Of a DNA stretch of 64,000 nucleotides, positions 22,508 through 30,274 are shown piece after piece (the first letter of the stretch is position 1; the number at the start of each line of letters is the position of its first letter). The stretch is taken from assembly GCF_947499705.1 (NCBI RefSeq), contig NZ_CANMPJ010000001.1, positions 1,647,501-1,711,500 of the forward strand, given 5' to 3'. The notes beneath the pieces were generated by a model. It was not told the DNA's origin. It worked only from the letters and a program-made list of their open reading frames with translations, and ran no database searches. The DNA comes from an uncultured Erythrobacter sp. GTDB lineage: Bacteria > Pseudomonadota > Alphaproteobacteria > Sphingomonadales > Sphingomonadaceae. A program made the translations under genes and the position numbers.

Positions 22508-23098
22508 ATGAGAGGGGCAGATTCAACATGGCGCGCCATCCAAGGCGCGGGCGCACTGGTTGCGGTTGCAGCCATTATGCCCCTATCCGCGTCACAAGCT
22601 CGCCCGGACTCCCACGTTGTCGGTGACGTCGCCAGCGCCGTGCAAACAGCACCCGGCGATAGCGGTGCCACGTCTAGTTTTTCTGCGCAGTTCGAACCCT
22701 ATTCTGGTCCACCGCGCCCAATCGAAGCGGCGCCCGGCGCGGTCGACCTGTCCGCATTCGATCCTCCGATTGAGAAGCCACCGGAACAGCAGGCAAATTT
22801 TGTGCGCTCGCTCGGCTCCGGTGTTGCCTCCTATTATGGGCGGCGCTTCCATGGACGCCGCACGGCCAATGGCGAGCGATTCAACATGCGCGCGATGACA
22901 GCCGCGCACCGTACCCTGCCCTTCGGCACCAAAGTCCGCGTCACCAACCCCCGCAATGGCCGCTCGGTCATAGTCCGAGTCAACGATCGCGGGCCCTTTA
23001 TCCGAGGCCGCAGCATTGATCTGTCCCGCGCCGCTGCGGAGAAGATCGGGATGATCAGCCGCGGCCACGCGCGCGTCAAAATGGAAGTTGTCCGCTAG
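22508..23098 (+). CDS. rlpA: RlpA-family septal ring lytic transglycosylase
   Basis: A 196-residue exported protein with an N-terminal hydrophobic segment (about residues 12-30) and a double-psi beta-barrel domain: [52 protein letters not shown] and [25 protein letters not shown]. The aspartate of NDRGPF is the expected catalytic residue. RlpA cleaves peptidoglycan strands that lack stem peptides at the septum. No lipobox and no C-terminal SPOR domain are present. The ATG has a poor ribosome-binding site, so the exact start is less certain than the identity. Confidence 0.88.
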
Positions 23099-23116: not shown

Positions 23117-23566
23117 CTACTCCTCAACGCCCAACTGCCCCCGGATCGCGCCCGCTGGAAACGCTGCCGTGTGCACGTTGACGTAGTAGTCCGCCCGGTT
23201 CTTCGCCAAATCCTTTAGCAGCTCCGGATCGACCGCGACGCACACGTCCTCGCCATCCTCGCCGAGCAGCTCCAGCGTCACCACCGGCGGGCCGTTCTCG
23301 CCAGCCTTTGCCTTGTGAATATGCGCGGCGGCGAAATCGTCCAGCCCGTCCACTTCGAGCATGTAGCACATCTGCCCGGCCTTCATGTCCAACTCTGCCG
23401 AGAAGTCTCCGCTGGCATTGTCGCCAGCGCCTTCGTGGCCGACCTCCTGATTGCCGAACATCGATGTGCCGATAAAGGCGAGATCATCGCCCTGCGCCGT
23501 CGCAGCGCCCGCCGCCAACAGCGCTCCGCCTGCCAGCGCCAGCGCACCCATCCTGAATATGGTCAT
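23117..23566 (-). CDS. CHRD domain exported protein
   Basis: A 149-residue protein with a signal peptide (residues about 1-24, ending TAQ) and a CHRD domain: FGNQEVGHEGAGDNASGDFSAELDMKAGQMCYMLEVDGLDDFAAAHIHKAKAGENGPPVVTLEL and DYYVNVHTAAFPAGAIRGQLG. CHRD is a beta-sheet domain first seen in chordin, found in many bacterial exported proteins without known function. The start at 23566 follows GGGAGAGGGACTT; an ATG seven codons upstream is less likely. It converges on rlpA with an 18-base gap. Confidence 0.88.
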   Translation of the reverse strand: MTIFRMGALALAGGALLAAGAATAQGDDLAFIGTSMFGNQEVGHEGAGDNASGDFSAELDMKAGQMCYMLEVDGLDDFAAAHIHKAKAGENGPPVVTLELLGEDGEDVCVAVDPELLKDLAKNRADYYVNVHTAAFPAGAIRGQLGVEE

Positions 23567-23925
23567 AAGTCCCTCTCCCATTTCCATGGGCCTCAGGACC
23601 GCCAGGGAGTTCGCGCATCACCGGCGGACCGGGCCCTAGAGCGCATAGACTAGTACCATCTGCCGAGTCGGAAAAGCCCCCTGCCCGGCGGCGCGAAATC
23701 GCGGGCGAAGTTGACACAATTGACACCGTGCTACCCACCGCATTCACGCATTTATCGCGATAAATCAGACACCTGATGCGAAAATGCGAAGTTGACACTT
23801 CTCCAACTCGAAACGGCAGCCTTCCTCACGCACAAGGAGCACTGTTCGCACACCGCGTCGCTGACAATGACGCACCATCACCTACCGATTTGAGCACCTG
23901 TAGGACAGCGCGCCCTCCAACTCGA
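23567..23925. other. Gap with an operator-like palindrome
   Basis: This 359-base stretch lies upstream of the leftward CHRD gene and downstream of the leftward gene at 23926. No gene is supported: a rightward frame from 23776 to 24792 is open but arginine-rich and runs antisense to two genes with good starts. It contains the palindrome and repeats listed separately and may hold the CHRD promoter. Confidence 0.5.
23705..23798. promoter_or_regulatory. 16-bp palindrome flanked by 13-bp direct repeats
   Basis: ATTTATCGCGATAAAT at 23750-23765 is a perfect 16-base palindrome. GCGAAGTTGACAC occurs at 23705-23717 and again at 23786-23798, 81 bases apart, and a third TTGACAC lies at 23720. TTGACA also matches the -35 consensus, so the repeats could carry promoters or be binding sites. 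Confidence 0.45.
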
Positions 23926-24291
23926 TTAGTCGATCTTGGTGTAATTCATCGTGATGGTCTCGGTCGGCAAAGGGTCTTTGGAGGCAGTGGTCGAGGGGCG
24001 CTGCTGCACCACATGGGTCAGCTCGATCACCGCCGTGTGCCCCCGGGCATCGCGCAGAGTGACCGCCGCAAGCCTTTGACCGACCCTGAACGTCCCGCGC
24101 GGCACATCGACCACCAGCGGTTTGGGCACCGACCCGCGGCGCGAAAGGTCGAGATGCGGCACATCGATCACCGGCCCTTTCGAGCGACCCTTGAACTGCG
24201 CCATACGGCCCGCGCCCGTGTTCAGCGTGCGACCGGGATCGCCGGCCGTCGGGTTGCTCCATTCGGGCGTATGCGTGGGTGTGCGTGGCAT
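23926..24291 (-). CDS. Small strand-rich protein, copy A of a duplicated pair
   Basis: A 121-residue protein without signal peptide. AGGAGGAGGAGGAACTT before the ATG is a very strong ribosome-binding site. The core DVPRGTFRVGQRLAAVTLRDARGHTAVIELTHVVQQRP aligns with VAPRGTFKQGQRIPKLKLQDTKGQTVAVELAHVVQQRP of the gene at 24840, so they are paralogues. The C-terminus ETITMNYTKID is faintly like the last strand of type VI secretion tube proteins (Hcp), but the protein is shorter and no secretion genes are near. Function unknown. It follows the lipoprotein gene at 24397 on the same strand. Confidence 0.7.
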   Translation of the reverse strand: MPRTPTHTPEWSNPTAGDPGRTLNTGAGRMAQFKGRSKGPVIDVPHLDLSRRGSVPKPLVVDVPRGTFRVGQRLAAVTLRDARGHTAVIELTHVVQQRPSTTASKDPLPTETITMNYTKID

Positions 24292-24396
24292 AAGTTCCTC
24301 CTCCTCCTGCTGCGGACCCTACTATGCGCACACGAGTCGGGCGAAATGCGCGCTCGGTGCGGTTTCAGAAACCCGCAAAAACCCCAGCGCAGCGCA

Positions 24397-24756
24397 TCAC
24401 TCCGCCGCATTGTCTCCCGCCCCGTCCTGCGCATCGAGCACCGTGTTCATGCACGCCTCCCCGATGGGCAGCATTGTGTCCGGATTGATCAGGTCGAGCG
24501 GCCCCAATCCCTGCTCCTCGATCCGCGCCGCCGAGCATTCGCAAAACGGCTCCGCCAATTCTTCCGCGCCGCCTTCCTGCAGGAATGTCGTCTGGCACTC
24601 GGCAGCAAAGCCCTCCAGCATGGGCGAGGAACTGGCCGGAGCCGAAGAGGGCAGCGGATCGACCGGTGTGATCGGATCGCTTGTATCGCATGCGGTGAGC
24701 AGAAGAGCAGCGGACAGCGCGGTCGGCAGCGCGATCGGTGTTTGACTGGGTTTCAT
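24397..24756 (-). CDS. Lipoprotein with a four-cysteine pattern, copy A
   Basis: A 119-residue protein with a lipobox signal peptide (ALLLTACD, Cys about 24), a Pro/Ser-rich linker and a small domain with the pattern C-x17-C-x-C-x27-C (ECQTTFLQE... FCECSAARI ... GEACMN). The protein at 25324 has the same pattern, C-x17-C-x-C-x28-C. Two disulfides in a helical hairpin are likely in the periplasm. The start is set by GGGAGGG before the ATG. Function unknown; it lies between the two copies of the strand-rich gene. Confidence 0.7.
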   Translation of the reverse strand: MKPSQTPIALPTALSAALLLTACDTSDPITPVDPLPSSAPASSSPMLEGFAAECQTTFLQEGGAEELAEPFCECSAARIEEQGLGPLDLINPDTMLPIGEACMNTVLDAQDGAGDNAAE

Positions 24757-24839
24757 GGCGTAGGCCCTCCCGGTGGTGGTCGACATGGATAGTGGTCGGC
24801 ATGGACAGGGACGTCGCCCTGGCCGTCTCGGACGGTGCG

Positions 24840-25124
24840 CTAGAGGACGCGCTGGATTGCCTCGTAAGTGAGGGTCCACTCTTGCTGCATTACATCATTG
24901 CCGCCCGTCCGTGCGCGCGCTGGTCGCTGCTGGACGACATGCGCGAGTTCGACCGCGACAGTCTGCCCCTTGGTGTCTTGCAGCTTGAGCTTGGGGATAC
25001 GCTGCCCCTGCTTAAAGGTCCCGCGCGGCGCGACCACAGCCAGCGTCTTGTCCGGCCGCGCTGAGGCTGCGGTGCCGTGAGTGGTGTAACTGGTGACGCG
25101 CACATTCTGCAGGTTGATCTTCAT
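24840..25124 (-). CDS. Small strand-rich protein, copy B
   Basis: A 94-residue protein, MKINLQNVRVTSYTTHGT at the start, then the VAPRGTFKQGQRI...ELAHVVQQRP core shared with copy A, and WTLTYEAIQRVL at the end. CAGGGAGGACCACT before the ATG is a good ribosome-binding site; a longer frame upstream is not needed. No signal peptide or membrane segment. The alternation of strands and the NVRVTSY motif weakly recall Hcp-type barrels. Function unknown. It is preceded on the same strand by the Cys-patterned gene at 25324. Confidence 0.7.
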   Translation of the reverse strand: MKINLQNVRVTSYTTHGTAASARPDKTLAVVAPRGTFKQGQRIPKLKLQDTKGQTVAVELAHVVQQRPARARTGGNDVMQQEWTLTYEAIQRVL

Positions 25125-25323
25125 AGTGGTCCTCCCTGTGGGGGACCGTACACCGAATGGGCGCGTCGCGGGAATGGGTGCGACCACCCAATTTTCGCGC
25201 GTCCCCAGCCCCAAAAGTCATATGGCTCGCCGGGGGCCAGCTCACTTGTAGAGCAACGGGAAGAAGCGTGACACCGGATCAAGTGTGCTTTGCACAGCTG
25301 CGCTTCCCAGTGAGACGGGGACG

Positions 25324-25638
25324 CTAAAGCCCCAACTCCCACGCACAGCTTTTGATGACCTTCTCCAAGCCCGCCTCGTCATAACTGCCATAGCGCCCGG
25401 TGACGCCGCGCTCGACGGCTGTGTCAACGAGGCAATTGCACATGTCCGGTTGCTTGCTCGGCGGCACGCCGTAGGGGCCGATCTCTTGGATGCAAGTCTC
25501 AACCCGGCTGTTGCGCGAGCTGGCTTCGGTGTTCAGCGTGTTGAGTTCGTCACTCGTGCGCGAGGCATCCCACAGGACAAGGGGCACGCCCACCAGCATC
25601 ATGCCAATCCCCAGCCCCTTGGGCACCTGCGTTCCCAT
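25324..25638 (-). CDS. Membrane-anchored protein with the same four-cysteine pattern, copy B
   Basis: A 104-residue protein with one hydrophobic segment near the N-terminus (LGIGMMLVGVPLVLW, about residues 9-23), then a short helical linker and the domain CIQEIGPYG...MCNCLVDTAV...IKSCAWEL with C-x17-C-x-C-x28-C. The segment has no lipobox, so it is probably an uncleaved anchor with the domain in the periplasm. TGGAGGACGGAT precedes the ATG. This gene and the one at 24840 repeat the order of the lipoprotein gene and copy A further left. Confidence 0.68.
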   Translation of the reverse strand: MGTQVPKGLGIGMMLVGVPLVLWDASRTSDELNTLNTEASSRNSRVETCIQEIGPYGVPPSKQPDMCNCLVDTAVERGVTGRYGSYDEAGLEKVIKSCAWELGL

Positions 25639-25845: not shown

Positions 25846-26409
25846 TCAGCCCTGAGGATCAACGATCCCAGCTAAGCGATAGACTACCATCGCTGCGGCT
25901 ACGGTTAGTGCAATAGAGTAAAAGAACAGCGACGTTCCCAAGAATCCAAGGAAGACGTTTGCACCAAGAAATAGGCCAGTTTCAGCGACAGCCCCCCCAA
26001 ACAGGAATTCATCTGTCTCAAAAACAAAAGTGGCCTCACGGACATAGCTCAAAATCAGCGCAAGTACTTGGACAAATATGAAGTGAAAAAAGGTCGCATT
26101 CATCTCGTCGAGGTAGGGAATACCCCCATCATTCTCAGTCGCCTTCAATGCGCGCTTAATACGAGAACTGATAATCGAAAAGAGGATTGCGTAAGTTCCG
26201 AGACTGAACCCAAGAAGACTAGGAAGTATCTCGCGGCAGTAGCTGATCCAATCAATATGCCATAAGCGAAAATTGCCGATTGCCAAAAATAGCGCCACCC
26301 AAAAGAACGGTGAACGGAGGATCGCTTTTCGCCCGCCGTAATTGGAAAGGTAGCGTCTCAGAACCTTCCAAAGAGTGCGCCATTGTTCATCGCCGTCATC
26401 AACCATCAC
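25846..26409 (-). CDS. Four-span membrane protein of a low-GC operon
   Basis: A 187-residue protein with a polar N-terminus and about four hydrophobic spans (residues about 34-48, 63-82, 106-123 and 139-178). No enzyme motif is recognisable. It starts with an ATGA overlap with the DUF4747-like gene, so the two are translationally coupled. By eye base composition is less GC-rich than the flanking genes, with many A- and T-ending codons, which suggests horizontal transfer. It could be a membrane effector paired with the upstream protein; this is inference. Confidence 0.7.
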   Translation of the reverse strand: MMVDDGDEQWRTLWKVLRRYLSNYGGRKAILRSPFFWVALFLAIGNFRLWHIDWISYCREILPSLLGFSLGTYAILFSIISSRIKRALKATENDGGIPYLDEMNATFFHFIFVQVLALILSYVREATFVFETDEFLFGGAVAETGLFLGANVFLGFLGTSLFFYSIALTVAAAMVVYRLAGIVDPQG

Positions 26410-27257
26410 TCACCAGCAATATCTCGCATTGCCTGTGCTTCGGTCTGCTCATCGGTATCATATCGCATTTGCCGAAGCTCTGGATGTTCATTGGTTGAAC
26501 GTTTCTCTTTTCCTTCGGCGGTTCTTCCCTCCACATCTATCTTCCCATTGGCGAGCGCAGGCTGACTGACCCTCCGAATCTCATCACTCACGTTTACGCT
26601 GCCGCCTCTTTCAGCGGTGTATGCGACTTCGAATTGACGACTGCCAGTTGCAGCGAGATGCTGTTGTATGCGCTCTTCAAAATCTCCATCGAAGATATCT
26701 GCGTTTGGTCGTTCTATCTTGATGCTAACCTTCGTGATCTTCTCCAATGCGAAGATTCGGTCCAGAGACTGGCGACTTTGAACCATAGTCACCTTAACGT
26801 CGCCAAACTCTCGCTGGATCTCCGACCGCTGTAGCAAGCGTTCGAACATGCGAGTGGCATCTCTTATCGAGAGAGTATCGCCTTTCGAATACGTTTGAAG
26901 AAACAGCTTGTGCGATTTCAGCTTGAAGACGAAATGAAAGGACTTTGGATTCGGATACAGGTTTTCCGGAATGGAAATCTCGGCAACTTTCTCGCCCGCT
27001 GCTTCTTGAAGATTCTCTAGATCAAACCACTCTGAGTCAGTATCAACCTTCGTAAAGGTCGTTAGAATTCCCTCGACGAATCCAGCTTCCAGAGTGTCGG
27101 TGTTCAAAAGTGAAATGACCCCGTATCGATCACCTCGAAGTTTGGTGCCAGCCTTCAATTGATAAGCACGCTGAATTAGACTTGCATAAACATATTCAGA
27201 ATTCGGGTGCGCTCTAATGTTGATAACCCCACTACGCATTAGTGCTTTCTGACCCAC
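26406..27257 (-). CDS. DUF4747-like protein
   Basis: A 283-residue protein. GVINIRAHPNSEYVYASLIQRAYQL, then LRGDRYGVISLLNTDTLEAGFVEGILTTFTKVD and WFDLENLQEAAGEKVAEISIPENLYPNPKSFHFVFKLKSHKLFLQTYS resemble, from memory, the DUF4747 family, which is patchily distributed and uncharacterised. GGGAGGACTTC before the GTG at 27257 is a strong ribosome-binding site, so GTG rather than the ATG at 27239 is the start. Codon use is AT-richer than that of uvrA next door. It forms a two-gene operon with the membrane protein. A defence or toxin-antitoxin role is possible but not shown. Confidence 0.68.
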   Translation of the reverse strand: MGQKALMRSGVINIRAHPNSEYVYASLIQRAYQLKAGTKLRGDRYGVISLLNTDTLEAGFVEGILTTFTKVDTDSEWFDLENLQEAAGEKVAEISIPENLYPNPKSFHFVFKLKSHKLFLQTYSKGDTLSIRDATRMFERLLQRSEIQREFGDVKVTMVQSRQSLDRIFALEKITKVSIKIERPNADIFDGDFEERIQQHLAATGSRQFEVAYTAERGGSVNVSDEIRRVSQPALANGKIDVEGRTAEGKEKRSTNEHPELRQMRYDTDEQTEAQAMRDIAGE

Positions 27258-27349: not shown

Positions 27350-30274
27350 CTACTCCGCCGCCTCCCGCGCAGCGCTGCCCTTCTCCAACATCGGCTTCAG
27401 ATATGCCCCCGTAAACGACCGCGGCTCCTCCGCCACCTCTTCCGGGGTGCCTTGCGCGACCACTTCACCGCCGCGCACACCTCCGTCCGGGCCGAGGTCG
27501 AGGATATGATCGGCCGTCTTGATCACGTCGAGATTGTGCTCGATCACCACCACCGAATTGCCTTGCTCCACCAGCCGGTGAAGCACTTCGAGCAGTTTGC
27601 GCACGTCCTCGAAATGCAGGCCGGTCGTCGGCTCGTCGAGGATGTAGAGCGTCTGCCCGGTTGAGCGTTTGGCCAGTTCCTTCGCCAGCTTCACCCGCTG
27701 CGCCTCGCCGCCCGACAGCGTCGTAGCCTGCTGGCCAACCTTGACGTAGCCGAGCCCCACTTCGTTCAGCATCCGCATCTTGTCGCGGATCGGGGGGACG
27801 GCCTTGAAGAACTCCTCCGCATCCTCGATCGTCATGTCGAGCACGTCGGCGATCGACAGCCCCTTGAACTTCACCTCCAGCGTTTCGCGGTTGTAGCGTT
27901 TGCCGCCGCATTCCTCACACGTGACGTAGACGTCGGGGAGGAAGTGCATCTCGATCTTGATCAGGCCGTCGCCGGTGCATTGCTCGCAGCGCCCGCCTTT
28001 GACGTTGAAGGAGAAGCGGCCGGGTTTGTAGCCCCGCGCCTGGCTTTCGGGCAGGCCCGCAAACCAGTCGCGGATCTGGGTGAAGGCGCCGGTGTAGGTC
28101 GCGGGGTTGGAGCGCGGGGTGCGGCCGATGGGCGACTGGTCGATCTCGATCACCTTGTCGCAATATTCGAGGCCGGTGATCGCCTCGTGCTTGCCCGCGA
28201 TGATGCGCGCGCCGTTGAGCACGCGGGCGGCGGAGGCGTAGAGCGTGTCGATGGTGAAGGACGACTTGCCCGAGCCGGAGACGCCGGTGATGCAGGTGAA
28301 GGTGCCGAGCGGGATGGAGGCGGTGACGTCCTTGAGGTTGTTCGCCTGCGCGCCTTTGACAGTGAGCTGGTGGCCGTTGCCTGTGCGGCGGGTTTGCGGG
28401 ACCGCGATTTCGCGCCGCCCTGTGAGGTAATCGGCGGTGAGACTCTTGCGGGACTTCATGATCTGCTTGAGCGTGCCCTGCGCGACCACTTCGCCGCCGC
28501 GCACGCCTGCGCCGGGGCCGAGATCGACGATATGGTCGGCCTGGCGGATCGCGTCCTCGTCATGCTCGACCACGATCACGGTGTTGCCGAGATCGCGCAG
28601 CCGCTTGAGCGTTTCCAGCAGCCGGTCATTGTCGCGCTGGTGCAGACCGATGCTGGGCTCGTCGAGCACGTAGAGCACGCCGCTCAGCCCTGAGCCGATC
28701 TGCGAGGCAAGGCGGATACGCTGGCTCTCTCCACCCGAAAGTGTTCCTGAAGTCCGGTCGAGATTGAGGTAGTCCAGCCCGACATTGTCGAGGAAGCCCA
28801 ACCGCTCGTTGATCTCCTTGAGAATGGCGCGCGCGATCTGCGATTGCTGATCGGTCAGCTTGTCGTCGAGCGCGAGGAACCAGTCCTTCGCATCCGACAC
28901 GCTCATGACGGTCGGCGCGGCTATATCGGTGCCCGCGACCTTCACCGCGAGTGACTTCTCATTGAGCCGCTTGCCGCCGCAGGTCTCGCATGGCTGCGCG
29001 GTCTGGAACTTCGACAGCTCCTCCTGCATCCAACTGCTCTCGGTCTGCATCATCCGGCGGTTGAGGTTGCCAATGACACCCTCGAACGGCTTGTTCACCG
29101 TGTATTGCTTGCGCCCATCCTTGAACGTCAGCGCGACCGGCATACCGCCCGTGCCGTGGAGGATGATGAGCTTCTGATCCGGTTCCAGCTCGTTCCAAGG
29201 CGTGGTGATCGTGAAGTCGTACGCTTTGGCGAGGCTGCTCAGCACCTGCATGTAGTAGGGCGACGGCGGGTTGGACTTAGCCCACGGAGCAATCGCCCCT
29301 TGCTTGAGCGTCAAAGCCTCGTTCGGCACCACCAGCTGCTCGTCGAACAGTTGTTTTTCACCGATCCCGTCGCAGGTCGGACACGCGCCCTGCGGCGAGT
29401 TGAACGAGAACAGGCGCGGCTCGATCTCCTCAATGGTGAAGCCGCTAACCGGGCAAGCGAACTTTTCGGAGAACACGATGCGGTTGGCGGGGATACCCGC
29501 GCCCTTCATCGCGCCGCCTGAAGCCTCTTCTTCCTCGCGTCCCGGGACCACACCATCGGCCAGGTCGATATATGCCAAGCCCTCTGCTAGCTTCAGCGCG
29601 GTCTCGAACGAGTCCGCCAGCCGCGTCTCCAGCCCTTCCTTCACCGCGAGGCGATCCACCACCACTTCAATGTCGTGCTTGAACTTCTTGTCGAGCGCTG
29701 GCGCTTCCTCGATGGGGTAAAGCTCCCCATCGATCCGTACGCGGGTGAAGCCTGCCTTCTGCCATTCGGCCAGCTCCTTGCGGTACTCGCCCTTGCGCCC
29801 GCGCACGACCGGCGCGAGCAGATAAAGGCGCGTGCCCTCAGGCAGTTCCATCACGCGGTCGACCATGTTGGAAACGGTTTGCGCTTCAATCGGCTTACCG
29901 GTTGCAGGCGAGTACGGCACCCCCACCCTCGCCCATAACAGCCGCATATAATCGTAAATCTCAGTCACCGTCGCCACCGTCGAGCGCGGATTGCGGCTCG
30001 TGGTCTTCTGCTCGATCGAGATCGCGGGTGAGAGCCCGTCAATATGCTCCACATCGGGCTTCTGCATCATCTCAAGGAACTGCCGCGCATAGGCGCTCAG
30101 GCTCTCAACATAACGCCGCTGCCCCTCGGCATAGATCGTGTCGAACGCAAGGCTCGACTTCCCGCTCCCGGACAGCCCGGTCACCACGATCAACGCATCG
30201 CGCGGTAGGTCGATATCGACACCCTTGAGATTATGCTCGCGGGCACCGCGGACGGAGATTTTGGTCAGGCTCAT
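27350..30274 (-). CDS. uvrA: Excinuclease ABC subunit A
   Basis: UvrA is the damage-sensing ATPase of nucleotide excision repair and works with UvrB. The 974-residue protein has both ABC modules: Walker [15 protein letters not shown] (about residue 33) and [14 protein letters not shown] (about 655), two LSGGE(S/A)QR signatures, and three zinc-binding regions (CPVSG...[18 protein letters not shown] and CEQCTGDG...[10 protein letters not shown]). Length is normal for the family. An alphaproteobacterial LexA box lies 12 bases before its ATG, so damage induction is expected. The accessory low-GC operon ends 92 bases downstream. Confidence 0.98.

Follow-up and report, generated by a model that had tools for sequence, protein, structure and literature searches.

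A four-cysteine anchored protein family and putative tail-tube-like proteins between uvrA and rlpA in an uncultured Erythrobacter

Four small genes lie side by side on the minus strand between uvrA and an rlpA-like gene of an uncultured Erythrobacter sp., within a window of 64,000 nucleotides (contig NZ_CANMPJ010000001.1, positions 1,647,501 to 1,711,500; coordinates below count from the first letter of this stretch). They are best explained as members of two independent families which would be interleaved in a fast-changing uvrA-rlpA interval, one consisting of anchored proteins with four conserved cysteines (the Cys family) and the other of small strand-rich proteins that may serve as tube-like accessories of a type VI secretion system. 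A probability of about 40% is assigned to this explanation as a whole. The pairing of the two families is not obligate, and a recent duplication of a cassette is not the source of the array.

25324..25638, minus strand: P0001, Cys-family protein of 104 amino acids (aa) with an N-terminal membrane span and the pattern C-x17-C-x-C-x28-C
24840..25124, minus strand: P0002, strand-rich protein of 94 aa with a predicted small tail-tube-like (Hcp/gp19-like) fold
24397..24756, minus strand: P0003, Cys-family lipoprotein of 119 aa with a lipobox LTAC (by eye) and a predicted helical domain at residues 45-113
23926..24291, minus strand: P0004, strand-rich paralog of P0002, 121 aa, with an Hcp-like C-terminal stretch

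The coordinates, order and strand given for these genes in an earlier note on the same DNA have proved correct, as have the strong ribosome-binding sites it described, with GGAGG found 5-9 bases ahead of each of the four ATGs. Successive genes are separated by 199, 83 and 105 bases, and neither promoter nor terminator signals rise above shuffled sequence. The four genes look real, since their GC content at codon positions 1/2/3 (0.59-0.66 / 0.44-0.54 / 0.74-0.81) resembles that of uvrA (0.63/0.42/0.84) and differs from that of a 338-aa open reading frame (ORF) on the opposite strand (0.74/0.55/0.60). None of the four proteins is named by Pfam, NCBIfam or PHROGs, the sole rows both concerning P0002 (PF13699, E 0.079; phrog_16103, of unknown function, E 0.08). 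A phage or plasmid origin was considered and rejected, as P0002 and P0004 found no match in phages or plasmids and P0003 none in plasmids; likewise, viral contigs yielded neither a confirmed relative with the profile A1 nor a match to a DNA pattern for DVMQQEW.

Fold and relatives of the strand-rich proteins

The motifs PRGTF-x-x-GQR and HVVQQRP are common to P0002 and P0004, as had been noticed earlier, and the two proteins are 45% identical over 67 columns (E 4e-16). Relatives of P0002 have been detected in three of 150 genomes, namely its own (G000), G073 and G080, and over the alignment P0002 shares 67-73% identity with P0005 and P0010 and 33% with P0004. A search with P0004 reached four of the 150 genomes, the fourth match (G029) being weak and carrying three stops. 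Across 397 genomes of the family, A1 recovered the own genome and six weak matches (E 2.6e-4 to 0.0099), with G073 and G080 not listed in this search and probably not drawn; in G165, the best of the six and the only one examined, nothing tube-like was seen.

The strand-rich proteins are likely to constitute a small form, 94-121 aa long, of the superfamily that includes Hcp and the phage tail tubes, a membership to which both fold lists and profile comparisons point. The remark of the earlier note that the soluble partner is faintly Hcp-like has thereby been strengthened. An AlphaFold2 (AF2) model of P0002 based on four sequences is all-strand, and among the best 50 of 624 Foldseek matches to it (E up to 10), 48 are Hcp, phage-tail or injection-system entries (6j0n, 6rao, 5iv5 and 5xeu, for example), with probabilities up to 0.98 and a best E of 0.021, ribosomal entries standing at ranks 48-49. 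The first 15 rows returned by VIA-align are likewise Hcp, type VI or phage-tail entries, including 8z7k (Z 5.5, root-mean-square deviation 3.4, 77 aligned). In hhalign comparisons, the four-sequence alignment scored 33.3, 31.9 and 34.9 against local profiles of Hcp, gp19-type tube and secreted Hcp-like proteins, respectively, while the best column shuffles scored 18.6, 16.2 and 22.6 and none of 200 reached the real score in any of the three cases; ungapped input gave the same values. The rlpA, CHRD, uvrA, argG and Cys families, used as controls (uvrA, rlpA and argG named by eye), scored 6.6-15.2.

Several observations weigh against this assignment. The AF2 model is weak (predicted local distance difference test 63.7, predicted template modelling score 0.53), no Foldseek match reaches E 0.001, and the VIA-align Z of 5.5 falls below 8, a range in which the tool warns of a merely common arrangement, with PilZ-type entries within one Z unit (5kec 4.8, 5vx6 4.7). 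The hhalign probabilities for the four-sequence alignment amount to only 67-71%, and the single proteins disagree: against the tube profile P0002 and P0010 obtain 91% and 87%, P0004 and P0005 0.2% and 0.9%; against Hcp, P0002, P0004 and P0005 obtain 49-64% and P0010 5.7%; and against the secreted Hcp-like profile P0004 alone (29.5%) exceeds 4%. Neither P0002 nor P0004 reaches the cut-off of any Pfam or NCBIfam family or has a Pfam row for PF05638 or PF06841 at E up to 10, and sequence searches of the PDB with P0002, P0004 and A1 returned no tube protein. Because the single scores are weak and PilZ-type entries follow closely, it is the agreement of the fold lists that counts as evidence.

According to the tail-tube assignment, the strand-rich proteins would be cytosolic, small relatives of type VI Hcp and of the gp19 proteins of phages and extracellular injection systems, in which the barrel strands of the tube would have been kept, apart from most of the first one, and the helix lost. 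If they are tube proteins, their length of about 94 residues would push against the minimum size of a fold that phage tails share with the type VI and extracellular injection systems, and would point to a so far unnamed type VI tube accessory.

With Hcp (PF05638), the strand-rich proteins share a predicted all-beta fold that finds Hcp in searches, a similar C-terminal stretch and a genome with a type VI system. They differ from it in length, the Hcp of the own genome having 160 aa, in the absence of a Pfam match, in a model without the helix and in the position of their genes outside the type VI cluster. The likeness to gp19-type tubes (PF06841) is confined to part of the family: it covers residues 45-94 in P0002 and 45-93 in P0010, whereas P0004 and P0005 do not match, the N-terminal half is absent or unlike, and no sheath or baseplate gene has been recognised near the window genes. 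P0002 matches an extracellular contractile injection system (eCIS)-type tube protein of Ilumatobacter at E 4e-11, a value relative to candidate stretches only, the match lying mostly within the last 23 residues of P0002, of which 20 are identical; this relative (P0006) itself matches PF06841 at 1.4e-25.

A third group for comparison is formed by secreted Hcp-like proteins found in G078, G012 and G044. Their C-terminal G-[QK]-[RK]-x-P ... stretch resembles that of P0002, and the G078 copy also directly adjoins rlpA; they differ in their length of 201-239 aa, an N-terminal signal (by eye) and two cysteines in the C-terminal stretch. These Hcp-like genes with a likely secretion signal (L089:137-742 in G078; L086:2133-2801 and L087:1717-2385, two near-identical copies, in G012; L088:1624-2343 in G044) have no other type VI gene recognisable by eye in the short pieces around them.

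Separate parts of the strand-rich proteins have also been compared with the two profiles. Residues 1-29 of P0002, which include LQNVRVTSY, score 31.1 against Hcp columns 127-154 (shuffles at most 17.0, 0/100), and residues 89-121 of P0004 score 31.5 against columns 129-161 (at most 16.8, 0/100). Residues 39-94 of P0002 score 39.2 against the tube profile (at most 13.8, 0/100), P0010 behaving alike, and 11.1 against Hcp, a value reached by 15 of 100 shuffles. The hairpin matches could stem from duplication of the hairpin, from a permutation or from two similar barrel strands that resemble each other by chance. It is considered unlikely that P0002 arose as a tube protein from one Hcp hairpin present twice and now serves the type VI tube as adaptor or cap; if true, it would rank among the smallest proteins with the tube fold and would indicate that doubling one half can yield a tail-tube barrel.

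Type VI secretion and the origin of the strand-rich genes

The own genome carries, in one stretch, genes for FHA, VgrG-like, OmpA, ImpA_N, VipA, VipB, Hcp, TssF, TssG and ClpV-like proteins. A PF05638 match occurs in 15 of the 150 genomes, among them all three with strand-rich genes (hypergeometric probability 8e-4, kinship ignored), the rest of the type VI cluster having been checked in the own genome only. Some of the 15 carry secreted Hcp-like proteins and not type VI parts, as in G012, G044 and G078 and for one match each of G114 and G125. It is proposed, tentatively and with more doubt than confidence, that the strand-rich proteins act with type VI secretion. Their job would be that of a small tube-like accessory of the cell's own system, joining, capping or chaperoning Hcp rings.

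Here too there are points on the other side. The type VI cluster (C1:22-42 kb) and P0002 (C1:1,672 kb) are more than 1 Mb apart on a contig of 2.7 Mb. Strong Hcp matches occur without a relative of P0002 in G011, G034, G084 and G085, which indicates that P0002 is not needed for type VI secretion. The base is also thin, as it consists of three genomes, two of which (G000 and G073) form a sister pair in the rlpA tree; the uvrA tree does not unite G000 with G080 as sisters. Between the latter two, synonymous divergence (dS) is 0.755 for P0002, 0.856 for CHRD and 0.827 for Hcp and lower, at 0.473, for uvrA; the similarity of the first three values fits vertical descent with repeated loss, perhaps jointly with the type VI genes.

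A different history is conceivable for the strand-rich genes: they may be remnants of an extracellular contractile injection system or phage tail tube that were domesticated and now, as orphans, serve another role. The best single match of both P0002 and P0010 is the eCIS-type tube protein, whose gene in Ilumatobacter adjoins a sheath-like gene and a gene with a HELTHVAQQR stretch (by eye). In addition, G073 has an apparent extracellular injection system with sheath-like genes (by eye) and two gp19-type tube genes (L041, L043), and the own genome has two gp19-type genes (L040:1483-1980, PF06841 E 1.2e-43; L042:1489-1995, 2.1e-43), with no sheath gene recognised within the 3.4-kb pieces read. 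Nonetheless, P0004 and P0005 are closer to Hcp than to the tube, and G080 possesses a strand-rich gene and no PF06841 match. The ratio of nonsynonymous to synonymous divergence (dN/dS), about 0.28 for P0002 against P0010 and P0005 (0.21/0.755, 0.255/0.894) and about 0.40 for P0005 against P0010 (0.274/0.682), indicates constraint rather than decay. An origin as leftovers is regarded as rather improbable.

The four-cysteine family and its relation to the strand-rich genes

The cysteine spacing reported earlier for P0001 (C-x17-C-x-C-x28-C) and P0003 (C-x17-C-x-C-x27-C) is confirmed, and so is the mode of anchoring, one protein being held by a membrane span and the other by a lipid. The hydrophobic peak starts at residue 9 in P0001 and at residue 7 in P0003; in the latter a lipobox L-T-A-C (by eye) follows the hydrophobic stretch, and P0001 is without one. 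The lipobox consensus is [LVI][AST][AG]C. As a direct BLASTP comparison of P0001 with P0003 finds nothing (E 1.9), their kinship is visible only through a family profile: a hidden Markov model built without P0001, P0003, P0007 and P0008 recovers P0003 at E 1.2e-16 and P0001 at E 1.1e-5 in a search space of window ORFs of at least 45 aa. Judged from these alignments, P0001 and P0003 are members of one unnamed family.

Among 25 aligned members, the four cysteines are invariant in all 25 and no other position is, an invariance that is partly by choice since members were selected with a wider form of the motif. The general pattern is C-x(16-19)-C-x-C-x(23-29)-C behind an N-terminal anchor, with a lipobox by eye in 20 of the 25 and a signal or span without lipobox in five (P0001, P0008, P0007, one of G080 and one of G046). 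AF2 predicts helices at residues 45-60, 65-82, 86-89 and 92-113, in a block with pLDDT near 90. The proteins would thus comprise an N-terminal lipid or span followed by a periplasmic helical domain, in which the four cysteines probably form two disulfides. Fold searches with the model gave no clear relative; the best score (Z 6.1, AcrIE3) heads a mixed list, read as reflecting a helical arrangement that is common.

No Pfam or NCBIfam family matches more than six of the 25 members: NF007824 matches six (best E 4.6e-5), Secretogranin_V two (5.3e-4) and GLTT one (5.9e-5), the remaining rows being scattered and weaker. Small bacterial lipoproteins such as NF007824 have a lipobox and length in common with the Cys proteins, but the match probably reflects the leader. 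The family is an unnamed, well-defined anchored domain now open to profile searches. A class-wide profile search found it in six of 385 genomes, the own one included, and a distant lipoprotein of the same class (G844, L091:1492-2040) seems to hold the four-cysteine domain twice in one chain.

The earlier note had described a two-gene cassette, duplicated in tandem, which would form a repeated functional unit. What has stood of this is the presence of four real genes of unnamed families; the repeated unit finds little support, as Cys genes mostly occur without strand-rich genes. A survey of neighbourhoods covered 39 loci with an rlpA match, the window itself being outside these, and in 32 of them both anchors, uvrA and rlpA, were on the piece; a strand-rich or Hcp-like gene was called at a profile E of 1e-3 or better. 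The interval is 0.5 to 7.7 kb long. A Cys-family gene is present in 17 of the 32 and a strand-rich or Hcp-like gene in one, and in 16 of the 17 Cys-bearing intervals no strand-rich or Hcp-like gene was found. The 32 intervals are not random, ten having been fetched after matching a Cys or strand-rich query. The other 22 were drawn from 30 genomes with known matchers left out, seven of the 30 chosen for an Hcp match, and contain a Cys gene in seven cases and a strand-rich gene in none. In a fairer run, G001-G028 (G005 left out; G007, G013 and G015 without rlpA match; G017, G023 and G025 incomplete), 21 complete intervals gave a Cys gene in ten and a strand-rich or Hcp-like gene in none. Of seven incomplete loci, one (L017, G073) holds both families, two (L028, L037) a Cys gene, one (L065, G078) a secreted Hcp-like gene, and in the other three the part covered shows neither. 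Viewed from the Cys side, the two families therefore occur apart in most genomes.

Searches of the 150 genomes agree with this picture. P0003 matches 11 of them, P0001 two (the own genome and G020) and P0002 three, and the own genome alone is in the lists of both P0003 and P0002, G073 and G080 carrying other Cys subtypes. The Cys family is probably independent of the strand-rich family, and because of the unequal co-occurrence the strand-rich proteins may depend on Cys proteins, not the reverse.

The idea of a recent tandem duplication of the cassette has been abandoned. The Cys tree places P0001 with its ortholog in G020, P0008 (60% identical), and P0003 with ten rows of other genomes, so that the two are not sisters. 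Since they occupy different branches, the Cys half was not recently duplicated. The window pair needs two changes on the tree, and a single change suffices in 0% of 200 bootstrap trees; long branches (L031_7687, L026_4815) weaken this tree. As far as the tree can tell, the two window Cys genes are old paralogs, and the cassette may have been duplicated anciently, with later losses.

It could nevertheless be argued that each Cys protein forms a unit with the strand-rich protein encoded downstream, the first anchored in the periplasm and the second its small soluble partner. In all three genomes with strand-rich genes, the locus also contains a Cys gene, and three of the four strand-rich genes immediately follow one in the same orientation, P0010 being the exception (P0002 and P0004 in the window; in G073, P0007 followed by P0005 after 109 bases), with differing subtypes. 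Set against this are the Cys-bearing intervals that lack a detected partner and the arrangement in G080, where the strand-rich gene is 3.3 kb away from the Cys gene, separated by a DRT2-type reverse transcriptase and an opposed bestrophin-like (sub-threshold) gene. Moreover, neither a hydrophobic signal nor a span is present in the strand-rich proteins, whose hydropathy over 17 residues peaks at 0.14-0.39, and the two proteins would therefore be on opposite sides of the inner membrane. A functional pair is accordingly thought unlikely.

A similarly low probability is given to the view that the Cys proteins confer immunity in the periplasm to injected effectors and form an anchored set that diversifies and is kept in a hot spot. 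The ten relatives of the P0003 type are 35-46% identical to P0003, and UvrA is 92-93% identical in the eight of these ten loci that show uvrA, which attests to strong divergence within the genus; up to two Cys genes occur per interval, with defence genes alongside (Kiwa in G020, DRT2 in G080). No toxin gene was recognised beside the Cys genes, where no systematic toxin search was made, and neither fold nor family searches linked the Cys proteins to a known immunity protein.

That the strand-rich proteins are fragments of the eCIS_core (DUF4157) domain, as the shared E-L-[AT]-H-V-V-Q-Q-R and the PF13699 row over P0002 residues 51-68 might suggest, is highly improbable and was rejected: the score, 13.6 bits, falls short of the cut-off of 22, V or I stands in place of the first histidine of the HExxH motif of eCIS_core, and the stretch in P0004 aligns with an Hcp strand, while a PF13699 search found no match in six of six genomes including the three strand-rich ones, with controls also silent, so that absence is not demonstrated.

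Other genes of the interval

The anchors and the remaining genes around the four-gene array are as follows.

22508..23098, plus strand: rlpA-like gene (name by eye), right-hand anchor of the variable interval
23117..23587, minus strand: CHRD-domain protein adjoining rlpA (PF07452, E 4.1e-26)
25846..26409, minus strand: hydrophobic (by eye) 187-aa protein, with a 4-base overlap with the DUF4747 gene
26406..27257, minus strand: DUF4747 protein inside the interval (PF15931, E 3.4e-48)
27350..30274, minus strand: uvrA (name by eye), left-hand anchor of the variable interval

The interval also gathers phage-defence genes. In G020, a Kiwa pair (KwaA/KwaB; L027:8444-9828) is located between the P0001 ortholog and a second Cys lipoprotein, and in G080 a DRT2-type defence reverse transcriptase (L026:5791-7119) lies beside a gene with a sub-threshold bestrophin match. 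In the window, the interval contains the DUF4747 gene, a domain name that occurs in publications of which three deal with prophage defence. The 187-aa protein has no PADLOC or Pfam match at E 0.01, and together with the DUF4747 gene that it overlaps (25846-27257) it may form a two-gene system.

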